NCBI GenBank assembly: GCA_027311185.1
Contig: DAICZK010000033.1
Location: forward strand, 1-12,227
Direction of reading: 5' to 3'
DNA from: Sulfuriferula sp.
GTDB taxonomy: Bacteria > Pseudomonadota > Gammaproteobacteria > Burkholderiales > Sulfuriferulaceae
Length of the DNA: 12,227 bases
Shown: positions 1,339-12,227 of the stretch, piece by piece
How positions within the stretch are numbered: position 1 is the first letter of the stretch
Layout of the letters: every line of letters starts with the position of its first letter
Notes under the pieces: model-generated
What the model was told of the DNA's origin: nothing
What the model saw: only the letters and a program-made list of their open reading frames with translations
Databases searched by the model: none
Position numbers and translations under genes: made by a program

Positions 1339-1665
1339 TCACTCGAAGATCGGCGCCAGCTTCGCAAGAACCTCATCGAGGATGGCTTGCGGTAGCGTAT
1401 CCACCTTGCGACAGTTACGAGCAGCTATGTCCAGCATGCGTGGTTGGTCGCAACGAATAATGCCGCTCGTTTTGATCCCGGTAATCGGTACGGCGAAGCC
1501 GATGCGTCTGGCGAACTCACCCCCTGTCGTGATCGGCACAATCACCGGTAGCCTTGTTGCTTCGTTGAACTCATCCGGCGATACGACCAAGACGGGGCAA
1601 TAGCCTTGTTGTTCGCGGCCGGCCACAGGTTCGAGCGATACCAGATAAATGCCTCCCCGTTTCAT
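1339..1665 (-). CDS. mazF: MazF/PemK (ChpB-like) endoribonuclease toxin, probable active-site variant
   Basis: This 108-residue protein has the MazF/PemK fold signature: KRGGIYLVSLEPVAGREQQG, VLVVSPDEFN, PVIVPITTGGEFARRIGFAV and CDQPRMLDIAARNCRKVD. It looks closer to E. coli ChpB than to MazF (GGxFARxxGFxVP, VRMMDLxAR-type strand). The family cleaves mRNA in the cytoplasm. The catalytic Thr of PIT (T46, aligned with E. coli MazF T52) is present. The Arg that normally follows in EQxGxRP (E. coli R29) is Cys23 here (EQQGYCP, codon TGC), one transition away from CGC. Arg17 lies nearby but aligns with MazF S23, so the toxin may be weak or dead. The ATG overlaps the antitoxin TGA in ATGA (1662-1665), indicating coupled translation. 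Family assignment is firm; activity is uncertain. Confidence 0.88.
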   Translation of the reverse strand: MKRGGIYLVSLEPVAGREQQGYCPVLVVSPDEFNEATRLPVIVPITTGGEFARRIGFAVPITGIKTSGIIRCDQPRMLDIAARNCRKVDTLPQAILDEVLAKLAPIFE

Positions 1666-1919
1666 ACCAGTTCGCCGCCCACGGCTGGCGCATCAACCCA
1701 TTCCCGTTCTTCCTGGGGCTGTGGCGCGGAATAGTCGGACGCCGCGAGTAATTCCGCCAGCGTGTAGCGCGGGCGCGGCAACGGGCCGATTACTATGCGG
1801 TCGCCGTCAAGGGTAACGCCAACCGTAGAGCCCGCGCTAAGGTGAAGCAGATCGAGAATTGCAGGTGGCAGCGCCAACATGACAGAGCCGCCAACTTTAC
1901 GCAGATGGGTGGTGTGCAT
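1662..1919 (-). CDS. mazE: MazE/ChpS-type antitoxin with AbrB-like DNA-binding domain
   Basis: The 85-residue protein begins with an AbrB/MazE swapped-hairpin domain: LRKVGGSVMLALPPAILDLL, then GSTVGVTLDGDRIVIGPL. It ends with an acidic toxin-binding tail that resembles ChpS (RYTLAELLAASD, then EEREWVDAPAVGGELV). It should bind and neutralise the MazF-like partner and, with it, repress the shared promoter. The start is supported by AAGGA on the minus strand, 7 bases before the ATG (TCACGCT spacer). Upstream is a perfect AT-rich inverted repeat (1937-1954), a natural operator candidate. The stop overlaps the toxin start by 4 bases. The antitoxin appears intact whereas the toxin has lost a key residue. 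Confidence 0.88.
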   Translation of the reverse strand: MHTTHLRKVGGSVMLALPPAILDLLHLSAGSTVGVTLDGDRIVIGPLPRPRYTLAELLAASDYSAPQPQEEREWVDAPAVGGELV

Positions 1920-5754: not shown

Positions 5755-6363
5755 ATGGCGCCAGAGGTACGTGAGCCCGAACTGAGCCGGGCGCAGCGCA
5801 GGATTGTGGCAGCGCTGTTATTGTCGATAGGTGCGCACGCCGCAGTGGTCGGCCTGCTGCGATTGCGAGCGATCGCGCCCTCCGCAGTCGAATCCGAAGT
5901 CTTGCAGATCAGATTGACTGCGAAGCCAGCCGCCGCGCGGACAGCGTCAGTGACACCGACACCGACCGCACCCGCACCCGCACCGGACGAGCCGCCGCAG
6001 CAAAGCACCCCCGTGCCGCCGGACAAATCCGGCCGGCTGGCGGTGGATGTTCCGTTGCTGGTGGACGAAACCTACTACCCGACCCGGGAACTCGATGTCC
6101 TTCCCCGGCCGCTATCCCCCGTCCACCCATTGTATCCGGTGTTCCCGCCGCAGCACGAGGTTCAGGGCTGGGTGTTGTTGCGATTGAAAATTGACGACAC
6201 GGGCCTGGTGCGTTCAGCCGAAGTCAGCGCCGCCGACCCGCCCGGCGTTTTCGATCAGTCCGCTCTCGCCGCGTTTGGCCAGGCGCGGTTTGCGCCAGCG
6301 CAAAAAGACGGGCGTGCGGTTAATTCGCTGGTGCAAATCAAGGTTAGTTTCAGGATCAAATAG
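5755..6363 (+). CDS. TonB-family energy transducer
   Basis: The 202-residue protein has TonB architecture: a short cytoplasmic start, one membrane helix at about residues 17-36, a Pro/Ala/Thr-rich periplasmic spacer (about 55-95) and a C-terminal TonB domain (about 120-202) with YPVFPPQ, VQGWVLLRLKIDDTGLV, SALAAFGQARFAPAQKDGRA and VQIKVSFRIK. The membrane helix keeps the Ser24-x3-His28 pattern equivalent to E. coli TonB S16/H20, which contacts ExbB/ExbD. It should pass proton-motive energy to outer membrane receptors. ATG 5755 is the first possible start because TAG at 5749-5751 is in frame just upstream. No exbBD or receptor gene is adjacent, so the partner and substrate are unknown. It appears co-transcribed with apaG. 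Confidence 0.88.
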   Translation: MAPEVREPELSRAQRRIVAALLLSIGAHAAVVGLLRLRAIAPSAVESEVLQIRLTAKPAAARTASVTPTPTAPAPAPDEPPQQSTPVPPDKSGRLAVDVPLLVDETYYPTRELDVLPRPLSPVHPLYPVFPPQHEVQGWVLLRLKIDDTGLVRSAEVSAADPPGVFDQSALAAFGQARFAPAQKDGRAVNSLVQIKVSFRIK

Positions 6364-6919: not shown

Positions 6920-7594
6920 ATGCGAGTGCTGATAGTAGAAGATGACGAATTGCTGGCGGCCGGCCTGCTGCGGATTCTCAGTCAAGCAGGTTATGCGGTC
7001 GACCGTGTCAGCAGCGGGGAGCGGGCGGATCTCGCGTTGAGCTCGGAGTCCTACGATCTCGCCGTGCTGGATATCGGTTTACCCGGAATAGACGGATTTA
7101 CCGTACTCAAGCGTTTACGTGCGCGCGGGCAGGTGTGTCCGGTACTGATACTGACGGCGCGCGACGATGTCGCCGACAAAGTGCGCGGCCTGGATTCGGG
7201 TGCCGACGATTATCTGGTCAAGCCTTTCGAGCTCAATGAATTCGAGGCCCGCATCCGCGCGCTGGTCCGGCGCGGCACCCAGATGAATAGCTCGCAACTC
7301 GTTTGCGGCAGTTTGCTGCTCGATACCCTGGCGCATCGTGCCTGGATCGATCAGTCCCCGCTTAATCTGACGGCGCGGGAGTGGGGCGTGCTGGAATATC
7401 TGCTGATGCGTCAGGGGCAGGTTCTGAGCAAGGACAAGATACTGCAAGCCGTTTGCAATTGGGATGAAAATATCAGCCCGAACGCCATCGAGGTCTACAT
7501 GTCTCGCCTGCGCGGCAAACTGGAACCGGCTGGGGTGTATATCCGCACCATACGCGGATTCGGCTATTTGCTTGAATCCGGCGATGCCGCCTGA
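6920..7594 (+). CDS. OmpR-family response regulator (TctD/QseB-like)
   Basis: The 224-residue protein has a receiver domain followed by a winged-helix DNA-binding domain. In the receiver (about 1-115) the acidic pair D8/D9, the phospho-acceptor D51 in LAVLDIGLPG, T79 in LILTAR and K101 in YLVKPF are all present. The Trans_reg_C domain (about 125-220) has LNLTAREWGVLEYLLMRQGQ, VLSKDKILQAV and VEVYMSRLRGKL-type helices (here IEVYMSRLRGKL), ending IRTIRGFGYLLE. It would be phosphorylated by the adjacent sensor kinase and bind DNA. GAGAG lies about 7 bases before ATG 6920. The kinase starts 11 bases before its stop. It looks intact even though the kinase does not. Target genes are not evident; a palindrome lies in its own upstream region. 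Confidence 0.95.
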   Translation: MRVLIVEDDELLAAGLLRILSQAGYAVDRVSSGERADLALSSESYDLAVLDIGLPGIDGFTVLKRLRARGQVCPVLILTARDDVADKVRGLDSGADDYLVKPFELNEFEARIRALVRRGTQMNSSQLVCGSLLLDTLAHRAWIDQSPLNLTAREWGVLEYLLMRQGQVLSKDKILQAVCNWDENISPNAIEVYMSRLRGKLEPAGVYIRTIRGFGYLLESGDAA

Positions 7595-8048
7595 TATACG
7601 CAACCACAGCCTGCGCAGTTTATTGCTGGCCTGGGTACTTATCCCGTTGCTGGCTTTACTGGCAGTGGCGACGGGCGGCGCTTTTTATATTGCCAGGGTG
7701 TTTGTCACGGATGCTTATGACAAGGCGTTGCTGGACCCTATCCAGGCGCTCAGCCAGCATCTGGAGGTGGTCAATGGCAGGCCCGTTCTGGTAATGTCGC
7801 CGGAGGCGCTGCGCTCCTTGTTTACCCACGCTTATGACAGCGTGTATTACCAGATTGCGAACGACGACGGCAAGGTGTTCGCCGGCGACTTGCGTTTGCC
7901 GATACCCGCTTATCTGGGCGTCAAACCGATTTTCTATACCACCCGCTACAATGATCGCAATGTACGGGTCGGCGTGCTGCGCATCCCGCTCGACAACAGC
8001 GAGCGTTTCGACAACACGCCTCGTTACGCCATCATACAGATTGCGTAG
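7584..8048 (+). CDS. Sensor histidine kinase, N-terminal fragment ending at an in-frame TAG
   Basis: From ATG 7584, overlapping the regulator by 11 bases, the frame gives 154 residues and stops at TAG 8046-8048. It holds a membrane helix (about residues 12-35, LLLAWVLIPLLALLAVATGG) and a periplasmic sensor domain of the TctE/2CSK_N type (DAYDKALLDPIQALSQHL, then FTHAYDSVYYQIANDDGKVF and VRVGVLRIPLDN-type strands). The text around the stop is RYAIIQIA-stop-TLIRRDRN; homologous kinases have QIAE/QTL there. A single base change from GAG or CAG would create the TAG. On its own this piece has no kinase domain. The same frame stays open after the stop and supplies the rest. Confidence 0.85.
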   Translation: MPPDIRNHSLRSLLLAWVLIPLLALLAVATGGAFYIARVFVTDAYDKALLDPIQALSQHLEVVNGRPVLVMSPEALRSLFTHAYDSVYYQIANDDGKVFAGDLRLPIPAYLGVKPIFYTTRYNDRNVRVGVLRIPLDNSERFDNTPRYAIIQIA

Positions 8049-8081
8049 ACACTGATCAGGCGCGACCGTAATCTCTACGGC

Positions 8082-8975
8082 TTGTTAGCGGTCATGATCG
8101 CGCCGGCCTTGATTATTGCACTTGCAGCGGTCATTCTGGTCTGGTTTGGTATCAGTCGCGGATTGACGCCGTTAAGCGAATTGCAGGCTGAAATCGCTGC
8201 GCGCTCATTGCTCGATTTGAGCCCTGTGCCCGAAGAACACGCGCCGATCGAGGTGCGGCTGGTGATCGCCTCGCTCAATAATCTGTTGCGCGGACTTGCT
8301 GCCTCTATCGACGGGCAGCAGCGCTTTCTTGCCAACGCCGCGCATCAGTTGCGCACCCCGCTGGCCGGTTTGCAAACGCAGGTTGAAATCGCGCTGCGCA
8401 ATGATATGTCGACCGAATTGCGCGGCGTGCTCGAGCAGGTGCTTGCCGCCACCCAGCGCGCGGCGCATATTGCGAATCAATTGCTGGCACTGGCGCGCGC
8501 CGAGCCGGGATCGCAGTACCTGATGGCGCACCAAAACATCAATCTCGCAGATCTGATAGAGTCCATTATTGGCTCCTGGCTGCATCGCGCGAGCGTCAAA
8601 AAGATCGACCTCGGCTTCGAGATTTCCGCTGCCCACATATCGGGCGATCCTTTTCTGATCGGCGAGCTCATCGCCAACCTGATCGATAATGCGATTCGCT
8701 ACACGCACTCCAACGGTTATATTACCGTGCGCTGCTATCAGGACGGCGGGGTAGTGCTCGAGGTGGAGGATAACGGCATGGGCATTCCCGAATCGCAGCG
8801 CGAAAAAGTACTGGAGCGCTTTTATCGCGTAGACGGTAGCCCCGGCAACGGTTGCGGGCTCGGCCTCGCCATCGTCCAGGAAATCGTCAGGCAGCATGGC
8901 GCAGAACTGATGATCGCTACGCCCGACAATGGCATGGGCACCCGTATCGTCATACGTTTCCCGCGCGCGGCCTGA
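8082..8975 (+). CDS. Sensor histidine kinase, C-terminal fragment (TM2-HAMP-HisKA-HATPase)
   Basis: This is the remainder of the same kinase, in the same frame beyond TAG 8046. It contains the second membrane helix (VMIAPALIIALAAVILVWFG), a short HAMP linker (ISRGLTPLSELQAEIAARSL), the H box FLANAAHQLRTPLAGL with the phospho-acceptor His encoded at 8343-8345, N box LIANLIDNAIRYT, G1 VEDNGMGIP, F box ERFYRVDG and G2 GCGLGLAIV. All catalytic motifs are intact. If translated independently it could start at TTG 8082 or ATG 8094, though no clear Shine-Dalgarno is seen. It would then lack the periplasmic sensor and TM1. The full-length protein would be about 463 residues, normal for TctE/QseC-type kinases. 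A nonsense mutation, readthrough or a base-call error are the options. Confidence 0.88.
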   Translation: MLAVMIAPALIIALAAVILVWFGISRGLTPLSELQAEIAARSLLDLSPVPEEHAPIEVRLVIASLNNLLRGLAASIDGQQRFLANAAHQLRTPLAGLQTQVEIALRNDMSTELRGVLEQVLAATQRAAHIANQLLALARAEPGSQYLMAHQNINLADLIESIIGSWLHRASVKKIDLGFEISAAHISGDPFLIGELIANLIDNAIRYTHSNGYITVRCYQDGGVVLEVEDNGMGIPESQREKVLERFYRVDGSPGNGCGLGLAIVQEIVRQHGAELMIATPDNGMGTRIVIRFPRAA

Positions 8976-9164: not shown

Positions 9165-9815
9165 ATGGCCATGCACGACCCCATCGAAAATCAATTGCGA
9201 AGAAACCTCAAGCCCAGGCTGGAGGCGAACCGGATGACGCTGTTCCTGCTGGCCTCGCTCGCGCTCAATATTGCGCTCGGTACCGGCGTGACCGCAATGA
9301 TGCCGCTTAAGGAGCGCGTACCGTATTTTGTCGTGTCGAACAAGGATACTGGATTGGTTCAGGTGTCGACGCTTGCCGCGCAGCAGTTCATTCCCGATGA
9401 GCAGAACATCAAATACTTCGCCGCAAAATTCGTCCGAGAATTATTAACAATAGATCCTTACCGCACCAAAACCGAATTTTTGCCATCGGCCAAAACGGTA
9501 GTGTTGAGCAAGGCAAAAACGCAGGTCGAAAATTTCCTGACTGCCGACAATACGCTGGAGCGCATGGACAAGGATCCGTCCCTGGTTCGCAACGTGACCT
9601 TGCAGCGCATCACGATATTGCCGAGCGCAGAAAATGTCATCACCGCCATAGTCAAGCTCACCACGCTGAGCGGCAATGGGGCGGCCGTGTCGGTAGTCAG
9701 GGCAATTACGCTGCATTACGTGCTCGAACCGATAAAAACCGATGCGGAGGCATTGCGCAACCCCATTGGGTTTTATGTAACCCAATTCACTATCGACGAG
9801 GAGATGGGGCAATGA
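9165..9815 (+). CDS. virB8: Type IV secretion system protein VirB8
   Basis: From ATG 9165 the product is 216 residues: a short cytoplasmic N-terminus rich in Arg/Lys/Asn, one membrane helix (about 24-45, MTLFLLASLALNIALGTGVT), then a periplasmic VirB8 (NTF2-like) domain. Family features include KERVPYFVVSNKDTGLV, VRELLTIDPYRT and the terminal NPIGFYVTQFTIDEE block, close to the NPLGFxV motif of VirB8. VirB8 is an inner-membrane assembly factor that contacts VirB9 and VirB10. ATG 9171 is an equally good start; AAAGA just upstream is a weak ribosome site. Longer in-frame readings would need a non-standard start and would run through the palindromic promoter region. Its stop overlaps the virB9 ATG in ATGA. 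Confidence 0.9.
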   Translation: MAMHDPIENQLRRNLKPRLEANRMTLFLLASLALNIALGTGVTAMMPLKERVPYFVVSNKDTGLVQVSTLAAQQFIPDEQNIKYFAAKFVRELLTIDPYRTKTEFLPSAKTVVLSKAKTQVENFLTADNTLERMDKDPSLVRNVTLQRITILPSAENVITAIVKLTTLSGNGAAVSVVRAITLHYVLEPIKTDAEALRNPIGFYVTQFTIDEEMGQ

Positions 9816-10648
9816 AGGCGACTCGGTCTGCAGTGATTTTTCTGCTCGCGGTGTTTTGCGCCAGTTTCTGCGCCGACGGTGTCAAGGCGGCAGAAATCTT
9901 TCCCCCGCCTCCAACAGTGGATAACGGCATCGTCGCGCCGACGCTGTTTCAGGATACCAAGCTCGTCGCTTACGAATACGATCCTAACCGCACCTTTCCA
10001 GTCAAGACGAGAGTCAAGGTGTTTACCGAAATCGAGGTGCCGGAAGGCGAAAAAATCGTCGCCTACTATCCTTCGGCCGACGACGAGCGCGGTTGGCCCT
10101 ATACGGTTTCGGGTGACAAACAGCGCATATTCGTCATGCCAAAAACCGCCGGGACAGTCAATACCGCGACGCTCGTCACCGACAAGCGTTCCTATCTGCT
10201 GACATTCGAGGCGGCGGCCGAGGGAGCCTGGTTTCAACGGGTGCGCTGGATTATCCCTGCTGGCGAACCGGCCGGCTTGCCCGCCCAATATGAAGCGTCA
10301 GCCCAGGATACGCCGGATCAAAATGCGCCCGTCACGCCAACCCTTGCAAACATGTTTGTCAATTACGATGTGAGCGGAGAGGCGAATTTCGCGCCCACAC
10401 TGGTCGCGGATAACGGCAAATTCACCTGGTTCAGAATTCCGCGCGATGTTCAGGAATTGCCCGCGTTGTTTGTTCTGGACGACAAGAATCATCCCGAGCT
10501 GGTGAATTACACGGTAGACGCCGACGGCATGATCAAGGCGCAGCGCGTCGCCGACGCCTGGCTGCTCAAACTCGGCGATCAGGAGGTCAAAGTGATTATA
10601 AAAGGCCGAAAATCGGTTTCAAAATCATTTTTCGGATGGTTCGACTGA
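9812..10648 (+). CDS. virB9: Type IV secretion system protein VirB9/CagX
   Basis: The 278-residue protein has a signal peptide (hydrophobic AVIFLLAVFCASFCADG, probable cleavage near VKA-AE). The N-terminal VirB9 domain includes KTRVKVFTEIEVPEGEKIVA, WPYTVSGDKQRIFVMP and TATLVTDKRSYLLTFE. The C-terminal domain (about 170-265) includes NYDVSGEANFAPTLVADNGK, FTWFRIP, LPALFVLDD and a final AWLLKLGDQEVKVIIKG. VirB9 forms, with VirB10 and usually a VirB7 lipoprotein, the outer-membrane core ring. The start overlaps the virB8 stop by 4 bases and the stop overlaps the virB10 ATG at 10648 (TGATG). Normal length and all blocks present. The C-terminal domain resembles the product that starts at 11985. 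Confidence 0.93.
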   Translation: MKATRSAVIFLLAVFCASFCADGVKAAEIFPPPPTVDNGIVAPTLFQDTKLVAYEYDPNRTFPVKTRVKVFTEIEVPEGEKIVAYYPSADDERGWPYTVSGDKQRIFVMPKTAGTVNTATLVTDKRSYLLTFEAAAEGAWFQRVRWIIPAGEPAGLPAQYEASAQDTPDQNAPVTPTLANMFVNYDVSGEANFAPTLVADNGKFTWFRIPRDVQELPALFVLDDKNHPELVNYTVDADGMIKAQRVADAWLLKLGDQEVKVIIKGRKSVSKSFFGWFD

Positions 10649-11988
10649 TGGCCGGCACCGATGAAATCGGATCCGGAAAAATGAGCAAACACGTCGTGCT
10701 CATCGTCGCCGTCATCATGGTGGGCGGCTTGATTGTCGCCTTCATGTTCAAGTTCAGCAGCTCGGGTGGCGAGCCGCAAAGGCGCGCGAACGAGCAAAAA
10801 AAACGCGCCGAAACGATTGCGGCGCAAATCGGTAACGATACTCCTGAATCTGAAAAGAACGCCCAGGCTGAAATCTTCGAACGTGACAAAAAAGCACGAG
10901 AAAAACTGGCCGCCGAAGCAAAGGTAGGGAAGGAAAATGCCGCCAGAAACGCCGCGCATAACGCCGTTCGCTATCCTGATACGCAATTCCCGTTCGAGAC
11001 GGGCGTCGTCACACAGGAACAGATCGATCATTATCAGGCCGCCAAAAACGCTCTGAATTTTAATTTTGGCGACCTTAAGCAGGGATTGTTCAAGCACAAG
11101 GATACGTTGCCTGCCAGTTTCGATGAATCCGGCGCAAGCGCTGCTAGCCCCGGGCATGCGGTTGCGGCCGCCGCCGACCAGGCTGCACCGAATCCAGCGG
11201 AAAACACCGCGCAGCAACAGATCAAGACGCTGGACGAGAGCGCGCAGGCTCAGGCGCAACGCGCAGTAGCCGCGCGGCAGGCGGCGCAGGTCAAGCAGGC
11301 GCCGCATCCTAACGAGCAGTGGCTGGAAAAGCAGGCGAAGGCAAGCCAACTTGCCCCGTCCAAACGCCTGCTGCCCGACCTGCCGCCCTCGGTCGACCTG
11401 TTGCAGGAAGGCGCAGTGATACAGCTGGTGCTATTGACCGCGATTGACAACACCCTACCGGGACACGTCTCCGCGCGCGTTACCGAAAACATTTACGATT
11501 CCATCACCGGCGATCATCTGATGATCCCGGCGGGTTCCCGGCTCGAGGGCGACTACAATCAGTCCACTCTGTTTGGCCAGAATCGCATGATGTTCGGCTT
11601 CAAACGCATCATTCTTCCTTCCGGCGCCTCAATAAGGATTGCTGCGTGGAACGGTACGGATGCGCTGGGCCGGTCCGGCGTCGAGGGCGATGTCAACAAT
11701 CATATCCTGCCTCAACTGGGCACAGGAATTTTCCTCGCCGTACTGGCCTGGGCGCTGCAACCGCCGGTTACCTCGGGCAATGTAATTTTGAATACCACAC
11801 CGGGTAGCACTGGCTCCATAGGCGACGCCGCAGGCCAGATCGTCGATTCCACGGCGACCGGCATCCTCGGCAAGTACCTGAACATGAAGCCCCAATTGAC
11901 GATAGACGCGGGCAGCAAGATTTCACTGATCGTTCTGCAGGATATCGAGATTCCCAATCCGGCATCAATAAAAGGAGAGCCGAATTGA
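10648..11988 (+). CDS. virB10: Type IV secretion system protein VirB10/TrbI
   Basis: From ATG 10648 the protein is 446 residues. A membrane helix lies at about 16-34 (VVLIVAVIMVGGLIVAFMF). Next comes a long Lys/Glu/Ala/Gln-rich segment likely to form coiled coil across the periplasm (about 40-240), in place of the Pro-rich spacer of many VirB10 proteins. The TrbI/VirB10 domain follows: PPSVDLLQEGAVIQLVLLTA, LPGHVSARVTENIYDSITGD, LMIPAGSRLEGDYNQSTLFG, QNRMMFGFKRIILPSG and VNNHILPQLGTGIF. The antenna segment lies about 365-410, and the C-terminal beta barrel strand ends ISLIVLQDIEI. VirB10 spans both membranes and senses ATPase energy. Start 10648 is chosen because it overlaps the virB9 TGA and has GGATGG upstream; 10636 and 10681 are in-frame alternatives. 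Its stop overlaps the next start. Confidence 0.93.
   Translation: MAGTDEIGSGKMSKHVVLIVAVIMVGGLIVAFMFKFSSSGGEPQRRANEQKKRAETIAAQIGNDTPESEKNAQAEIFERDKKAREKLAAEAKVGKENAARNAAHNAVRYPDTQFPFETGVVTQEQIDHYQAAKNALNFNFGDLKQGLFKHKDTLPASFDESGASAASPGHAVAAAADQAAPNPAENTAQQQIKTLDESAQAQAQRAVAARQAAQVKQAPHPNEQWLEKQAKASQLAPSKRLLPDLPPSVDLLQEGAVIQLVLLTAIDNTLPGHVSARVTENIYDSITGDHLMIPAGSRLEGDYNQSTLFGQNRMMFGFKRIILPSGASIRIAAWNGTDALGRSGVEGDVNNHILPQLGTGIFLAVLAWALQPPVTSGNVILNTTPGSTGSIGDAAGQIVDSTATGILGKYLNMKPQLTIDAGSKISLIVLQDIEIPNPASIKGEPN
11971..11977 (+). promoter_or_regulatory. Shine-Dalgarno AAAGGAG for the TTG-started gene at 11985
   Basis: AAAGGAG sits inside the end of virB10, with 7 bases between GGAG and TTG at 11985. 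The TTG overlaps the virB10 stop (TTGA). Together these make TTG the probable start and suggest coupled translation. Confidence 0.65.
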
Positions 11989-12227
11989 AACATACCCTGT
12001 TCGCCGTGTTACTGGCGACGCTTTTTTCAGTTTCGTGCGCGTCGGAGTTACCGGGCTACGATTTCAACTACACCGTGACGGGCGACGAGGCAGCAGCTCC
12101 TATCCAGGCGTTTGACGACGGCACGCATTTATATTTGCAATTCAGTGATTCCGATACCGTCCCGGCGCTGTTCGTCAATACCGCGGAAGGCGCAGTCAGG
12201 TTAGCGGTTCACGAGCAGTTTCCTTAC
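11985..12227 (+). CDS. Exported small protein resembling the VirB9 C-terminal domain (incomplete at window end)
   Basis: The frame opens at TTG 11985 and gives 81 residues before the window ends. Residues 1-19 form a signal sequence (MKHTLFAVLLATLFSVSCAS). Cys18 suggests a lipoprotein, but the -3 residue is Ser, so cleavage by signal peptidase I at SCA-SE is also possible. The mature part, DFNYTVTGDEAAAPIQAFDD then GTHLYLQFSDSDTVPALFVN, lines up with the VirB9 C-terminal domain two genes upstream (FVNYDVSGEANFAPTLVADN then GKFTWFRIPRDVQELPALFV). Shared are NYxVxG, AP, the Asp-Gly turn, PALFV and the spacing. It lacks the VirB9 N-terminal domain. It probably joins the outer-membrane core complex, perhaps in a VirB7-like position; that role is inferred. 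Confidence 0.7.
   Translation, partial: MKHTLFAVLLATLFSVSCASELPGYDFNYTVTGDEAAAPIQAFDDGTHLYLQFSDSDTVPALFVNTAEGAVRLAVHEQFPY

Follow-up and report, generated by a model that had tools for sequence, protein, structure and literature searches.

A candidate adaptor protein with a VirB9 ring domain between virB8-10 and type IVb pilus genes in Sulfuriferula

Introduction

Type IV secretion systems (T4SS) and type IV pili are, as a rule, described apart from each other, with cooperation in mating as their only link, if any. Here we describe a gene at the end of a 12,227-nt stretch of Sulfuriferula sp. DNA (the window, which is the complete contig G000:C197), in which a VirB9 C-terminal domain (CTD) is encoded directly after virB8, virB9 and virB10 without the N-terminal domain (NTD) of VirB9. 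In relatives this gene is followed by genes of a type IVb pilus.

The proteins closest to it on the T4SS side are VirB9 and CagX (TrwF of R388, TraO of pKM101, CagX and the VirB9 of X. citri), with which the domain shares its sequence family and fold. However, the CTD-only proteins lack the N-terminal domain, mostly have a long C-terminal extension, and carry Q in place of R/K after the DDG loop. On the pilus side, TcpQ and BfpG are reported to attach to their secretins (PMC4971541). PilL of the IncI1 plasmid ColIb-P9 contained a TcpQ domain but gave no CagX match at E 0.5, so a VirB9 CTD is not a general PilL feature. In comparison to PilL and the TcpQ/BfpG/LngC accessory proteins, the protein of this genus mostly has LysM instead, and in one same-genus locus (L031) it is the next gene that has TcpQ and STN matches, both just below the cut-off.

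The nearest conceptual parallel is the VirB7 of Xanthomonas (VirB7XAC2622). It consists of a VirB7 motif joined to an N0 domain and links an element of the T4SS outer ring with a periplasmic domain of the secretin type; VirB7 is otherwise a small lipoprotein of 30-45 mature residues (PMC3093366). The Xanthomonas protein belongs to a T4SS alone, whereas here a VirB9 CTD is combined with LysM, OmpA-like or TcpQ parts in an operon with secretin and pilus genes. In 2014 a 'T4SS-II' of Burkholderia terrae BS001 was listed with virB8, virB9, virB10, transglycosylases, pilL, TcpQ and pulD/E/F, and a hybrid T4SS/pilus cluster is therefore already in print as a gene list (PMC4122924); our comparison is with that list, and the excerpt mentions no VirB9 domain in pilL. 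A 2025 review mentions the cooperation of type IV pili in IncI plasmids and PAPI-1 (PMC12857230). The VirB9-CTD adaptor architecture was not described in the excerpts of PMC12857230, PMC7616799, PMC6461280 and PMC8929069, and no description of such a composite protein was found in searches of the open-licence PMC literature, preprints being outside this scope.

Results

The window gene encodes a VirB9 CTD. Its 5' part (11985..12227, plus strand, 81 codons) has no stop codon before the sequence ends and is cut off by the contig end. The start codon is TTG, preceded by an AGGAG ribosome-binding site (11973..11977, +), and within the TTGA at 11985..11988 (+) it overlaps the stop codon of virB10 by four bases. 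This overlap suggests translational coupling, and it can be argued from it that production of the protein is coupled with that of the T4SS core. A signal peptide of about residues 1-19 (11985..12041, +; cleavage after SCA placed by eye, without a predictor) is followed by a VirB9-CTD-like domain at residues 23-81 (12051..12227, +), identified by profile match and making up about two thirds of the domain. Residues 25-72 matched positions 116-164 of the 198 of Pfam CagX (PF03524) with E 2.9e-10 and 40.8 bits (cut-off 34.2). Because the match is restricted to these positions, the gene corresponds to the C-terminal domain only: the C-terminal beta-sandwich of VirB9, which belongs to the O-layer outer ring, is present, and the N-terminal I-layer domain is not, with 24 residues preceding the match. 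The NCBIfam model for VirB9 (TIGR02781) gave E 1.5e-8 and 34.6 bits, its whole-protein cut-off of 217.7 being far higher. Aligned with the VirB9 of the window, 14 of 38 residues were identical (E 5e-5), and none of 2000 shuffles attained the 25.8 bits of this alignment (top shuffle 23.9). A CTD profile from which the window row was excluded scored the window protein at 83.4 bits; the highest score among 2000 shuffles was 8.5, and the window VirB9 scored 24.6. Structure comparison found the VirB9-CTD fold in two relatives, although the VIA-align lists are no proof against other folds. The identity of the domain is well supported. An earlier note on this DNA had described a signal peptide and then an NTD-less, VirB9-CTD-like sequence after virB10, and this observation was confirmed. 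The large protein database gave no match for the 81-residue fragment, probably because of its shortness.

Homologues were searched across 100 genomes, the window's own included, and matches were found in 21; beyond the window there were 26 matches, and the 20 stretches examined hold 21 of them. Close homologues (E <=5.9e-15) were present in eight other genomes of the genus (G002, G004, G005, G006, G007, G009, G010, G015). Genomes of named species were scanned with the seed Q[VI]F[DN]DGxx[LT]Y, and of 100 confirmed relatives the 80 best were kept, with counts that apply to motif-bearing genes; eight of these loci (L052-L059) are the same-genus loci again under their record names. An open reading frame (ORF) spanned the match in 79 of the 80: 39 were NTD-less, 39 were ordinary VirB9s and one had a mis-called start (L061). 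The latter and L108, which had no ORF, are outside the 39/39 tallies, and L061 was re-entered as CTD-only in the tree and in the residue count below.

The NTD-less proteins had 22-86 residues before the CTD, in comparison to a median of 157 in the VirB9s, and C-terminal tails with a median of 261 residues in comparison to 25. All but two (37/39) were at least 254 residues long, and the full-length proteins of the genus had 254-406 residues. The Pfam scan covered six of the eight same-genus proteins and placed the CagX CTD near the N terminus in all six; it was followed by LysM in four (L031, L034, L036, L037), by a sub-threshold TcpQ in L038 and by nothing recognised in L033. Outside the genus the chain was CTD-TcpQ or CTD-OmpA-like-TcpQ. 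Among the 19 of the 39 NTD-less proteins that were scanned (nine under earlier locus numbers), four had LysM, seven TcpQ above and three below the cut-off, one a lone sub-cut-off OmpA-like match (L084), and four nothing beyond the CTD. By locus, TcpQ (PF10671) was above the cut-off in L040, L062, L064, L065, L069, L077, L094 and L097, below it in L038, L039 and L041, and without a match in the scans of L031, L033, L034, L036, L037, L044, L082, L084 and L089. OmpA exceeded its Pfam cut-off in L062 only (28.9 bits, cut-off 27.2); L065, L077, L084, L094 and L097 were below it and are read as OmpA-like from their likeness to L062. In the L052 protein, the model of residues 291-369 reached a pLDDT (predicted local distance difference test score) of about 47-65 only, and this part was assigned to no domain. 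The window itself shows the first 81 residues, and the rest of its protein probably has a LysM tail like that of the nearest relative (59% identity).

The earlier note's interpretation thus stood in part. An NTD-less VirB9 CTD it is, but mostly not a standalone one: the window gene is truncated, and the long relatives often carry LysM, OmpA-like or TcpQ parts. The suggested lipid-modified Cys18 was not supported either, since SVSC does not fit [LVI][ASTVI][GAS]C by eye and no lipobox, strict or loose, was found in the eight same-genus relatives; over the 39 relatives the strict form occurred in four and the loose form in three. The pilus half of the operon had been outside that reader's view.

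In the genus the gene order was virB8-virB9-virB10-[CTD gene]-TcpQ/STN-like protein-secretin-...-GspE-GspF-prepilins, and in L038 the TcpQ part was inside the CTD gene itself. For L031, Pfam identified the secretin and GspE clearly, with the TcpQ and STN matches of the TcpQ-like gene just under the cut-off; the remaining pilus gene names were given by eye or by likeness to L031-type seeds. The four-base overlap with virB10 (TTGA or ATGA) was also found in L052, L053, L057 and L058, so that five of the eight genus genes inspected overlap. Another contig of the window's own genome (C36) carried the last 40 residues of a secretin (78% identity), a PilO-like ORF resembling that of L031, GspE and GspF, and from this contig and the relatives a secretin is expected downstream of the window gene. 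Two of the same-genus loci (L033/L055 and L035/L056) had the virB8-9-10-CTD-TcpQ-like block followed by an R64/IncI-like pilus set, unlike that of L031, with a prepilin-like gene at the join.

Across the 39 NTD-less genes, virB10 ended within 300 nt upstream in 26, was elsewhere in the locus (0.7-4.9 kb) in five, and was not found in the examined locus in eight. A secretin was downstream in 34 of the 39; among the other five, L068 and L071 end at a contig edge, and L082, L089 and L090 had none in the examined stretch, the genomes of L089 and L090 having a match to the PilN secretin family TIGR02520 elsewhere. The arrangement was also found on plasmids. Hydrogenophaga plasmid pPBL-H3 is annotated with MobH, TraD, ATPase, VirB2, VirB3, VirB4, transglycosylase, T4SS protein, VirB9 and VirB10, followed by a 'TcpQ domain-containing protein', which is the CTD gene, a second TcpQ protein, PilN and PilO2 through to PilV; the ATPase was identified here as VirB11 and the T4SS protein as VirB8. 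Paraburkholderia plasmid pBN2 had a similar order, with the CTD gene annotated as TrbG/VirB9.

The motors of a VirB T4SS, VirB4 and VirB11, were found in the window's own genome on contig C230 (L051), which carried slt, virB11 and virB4, and virB3-like and virB5-like genes by eye. A VirB4 of this type was present in nine of 18 genus genomes, and these nine are also the carriers of the CTD gene; in the aligned pieces the VirB4s of the relatives were 54-87% identical to it. In the other nine, distant VirB4s were found in G001 and G014 only and none in seven. This co-occurrence gave a Fisher p of 4e-5, uncorrected for shared ancestry, with G001 and G014 counted as lacking the CTD gene despite weak matches (E 1e-4 to 5e-4). 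The two weak-match loci of G001 were full-length VirB9s, and the match of G014 was not among the stretches examined. G010 carried the virB8-10/CTD locus and the slt-virB11-virB4 locus about 165 kb apart on one contig, which makes the system there split chromosomal or at least single-replicon. VirD4 was not found in six of the nine CTD-gene genomes, in a search that covered PF02534 as the one coupling-protein family and an own genome of only 65% completeness; in G005, G009 and G015 it scored low yet above the cut-off (E about 7e-9). On gene content, the window locus and the slt-virB11-virB4 locus together make up a split T4SS for which no VirD4 was detected across all carriers. The second locus (C230/L051, L157-L164), with virB3-, virB5- and virB6-like genes by eye, was situated amid housekeeping genes. 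In L051 (469-3027, minus strand) the virB4 frame has a short unknown stretch between repeated segments, which resembles an assembly scar.

In the CTD tree the window protein was placed within ten CTD-only rows (nine of the genus and L089, on a long branch) with support 97/83, and the window VirB9 among the VirB9s. The tree has 82 columns only, and 29 of its 107 inner branches are open; a grouping of all 41 CTD-only rows in one clade was not rejected (p-AU, approximately unbiased test, 0.47). A recent duplication from the neighbouring virB9 was considered and is unsupported, as the tree puts the two apart. Five residues were invariant across 36 aligned proteins. Two residues after the conserved tyrosine that follows the DDG loop, the 41 CTD-only domains had Q in 39 and E in two. 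In VirB9s of the same loci this position was R/K in 20 of the 25 with the motif and Q in one (five more without the motif were excluded), and in 39 other VirB9s it was R/K in 30 and Q in three. The window has Q in the CTD gene and R in VirB9. The position lies outside the scan seed, and the rows are related by descent.

The window genes upstream are virB8 (9165..9815, +; profile match E 1.5e-24, start codon picked by eye), a full-length virB9 (9812..10648, +; CagX 3-196 of 198) and virB10 (10636..11988, +; TrbI domain, E 2.5e-43). Directly 5' of virB8, a two-component system of response regulator and sensor kinase is encoded at 6920-8975 and possibly regulates the operon. By eye it was also present in L031 and L033, represented by kinase ends in L035 and L036, and not seen in L034, L037 and L038. 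Profile matches further identified a DUF433 protein (630-875) and a TonB C-terminal-domain protein (5755-6363), and at 1339-1919 (minus strand) there is a gene pair that looks like a PemK/MazF-type toxin with an AbrB-like antitoxin.

Discussion

From the domains, the folds of two relatives, the gene order and the motors in the genome, we propose that the product of the window gene is an exported adaptor belonging to a hybrid T4SS/type IVb pilus operon: a PilL-like, wall-anchored secretin accessory protein with a VirB9 ring domain that would couple the T4SS to the pilus secretin. We consider the chances of this proposal to be even. The protein would be exported via its signal peptide and act as a secretin accessory factor of the PilL/TcpQ kind. 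A TcpQ part, in the same chain or in the neighbouring protein, would attach to the PilN secretin, and a LysM or OmpA-like part, both of the peptidoglycan-binding type, would anchor the assembly in the cell wall. The VirB9 CTD would pack in the manner of VirB9 in an outer-membrane ring beside the VirB7/9/10 core complex, and the adaptor would thereby couple or co-localise the T4SS channel and the pilus pore.

Several observations weigh against this proposal. The coupling of the T4SS outer-membrane complex to the secretin is proposed from sequence. The C-terminal part of the window protein lies beyond the contig end, and the Pfam scan of L033 gave no C-terminal domain (its near relative L035 was outside that scan). 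Five of the 39 loci have their virB10 at a distance of 0.7-4.9 kb, and the genome of L082 (G107), which has a short CTD form after virB10, gave no match to TIGR02520. The change from R/K to Q could reflect a loss of VirB9-type contacts. In six Pigmentiphaga-type loci (L064, L069, L070, L073, L075, L078) the CTD gene lies 4-10 nt before the secretin, and virB8-10 were not detected in the flanks, which extended 10 kb upstream or, in L075, about 3.6 kb. L061 resembles these loci, with its CTD gene by the secretin and virB8-10 undetected, and brings them to seven. VirB10 was found elsewhere in six of the seven genomes, and at the seven of these 12 places that were examined neither a CTD gene nor a secretin was detected nearby. 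CTD genes at a secretin without virB8-10 mean that T4SS contact is not always needed, and the link of the CTD gene with the pilus secretin is no less firm than its link with the T4SS.

These same loci bear on the strongest alternative, a pilus-only accessory protein in which the VirB9 CTD was co-opted as a collar of the type IVb secretin and its T4SS contact was lost, the proximity to virB8-10 being a relic of conjugative plasmids that carried both machines. The two Pigmentiphaga-type proteins scanned (L064 and L069) were CTD-TcpQ. VirB4 and VirB11 accompanied VirB10 at five of the seven places examined, and the VirB10 scores there (105-110) were like those of ordinary conjugation, yet also close to those of the CTD loci L084, L088 and L090 (114-125). 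Four Pigmentiphaga-type genomes were searched for secretins; those next to the CTD gene scored about 205-208 bits in comparison to the TIGR02520 cut-off of 287.65, and one of these genomes also has a second secretin above it. A downstream secretin in 34 of 39 loci and the Q in 39 of 41 domains speak for such a collar as well. However, 26 of the 39 loci have virB10 no more than 300 nt upstream, the four-base overlap was found in five of the eight genus genes inspected, and VirB4 is present in all nine genus genomes with the CTD gene. On this balance we regard the pilus-only explanation as rather unlikely.

As the earlier note had suggested, the protein could be a second outer-ring subunit or a VirB7 substitute. 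The CTD would then be part of, or sit on, the O-layer of VirB9 and VirB10, and the C-terminal domains would be wall anchors only; we consider this improbable. The VirB9-CTD fold of two relatives and the position after virB10 would suit this role, and so would the short lipoprotein-like VirB9 CTDs that follow virB10 at L082:7759-8196 (145 residues) and L089:1483-1881 (132 residues), the former in a locus that may be a remnant because its virB9 ORF is short. In addition, a search of seven operon stretches for a VirB7 gene with a rough lipobox motif gave several matches, none convincing by eye. On the other side, TcpQ domains occur in the same chain, the CTD gene occurs beside a secretin without virB8-10 nearby, and neither the window nor the genus has a lipobox, the same-genus proteins with their 254-406 residues being no small lipoproteins. 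A decaying fragment or virB9 duplication remnant without function, to which the incomplete window gene and the shortness of L082 and L089 might point, can practically be dismissed in view of the five invariant residues in 36 proteins, the lineage separate from the neighbouring virB9, and the conserved start/stop overlap and ribosome site.

The adaptor proposal can be extended, though with doubt prevailing, to a T4SS core complex and a type IVb secretin that would form one wall-anchored supercomplex, with the VirB9 CTD in the T4SS ring and the TcpQ/BfpG partner in the secretin ring, and that would be a split chromosomal machine in the lineage of the window. With no VirD4 shared by all its carriers, such a machine might function in taking up or releasing DNA or in contact-dependent delivery, and not in plasmid conjugation.

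When these proteins are named only 'TcpQ domain-containing' or only 'TrbG/VirB9', their composite nature is masked. If the adaptor reading is true, a single chain with a VirB9 ring domain and wall- and secretin-binding domains would be a concrete molecular link between T4SS and pilus, and would explain why virB8-9-10 stand at the head of pilus operons.
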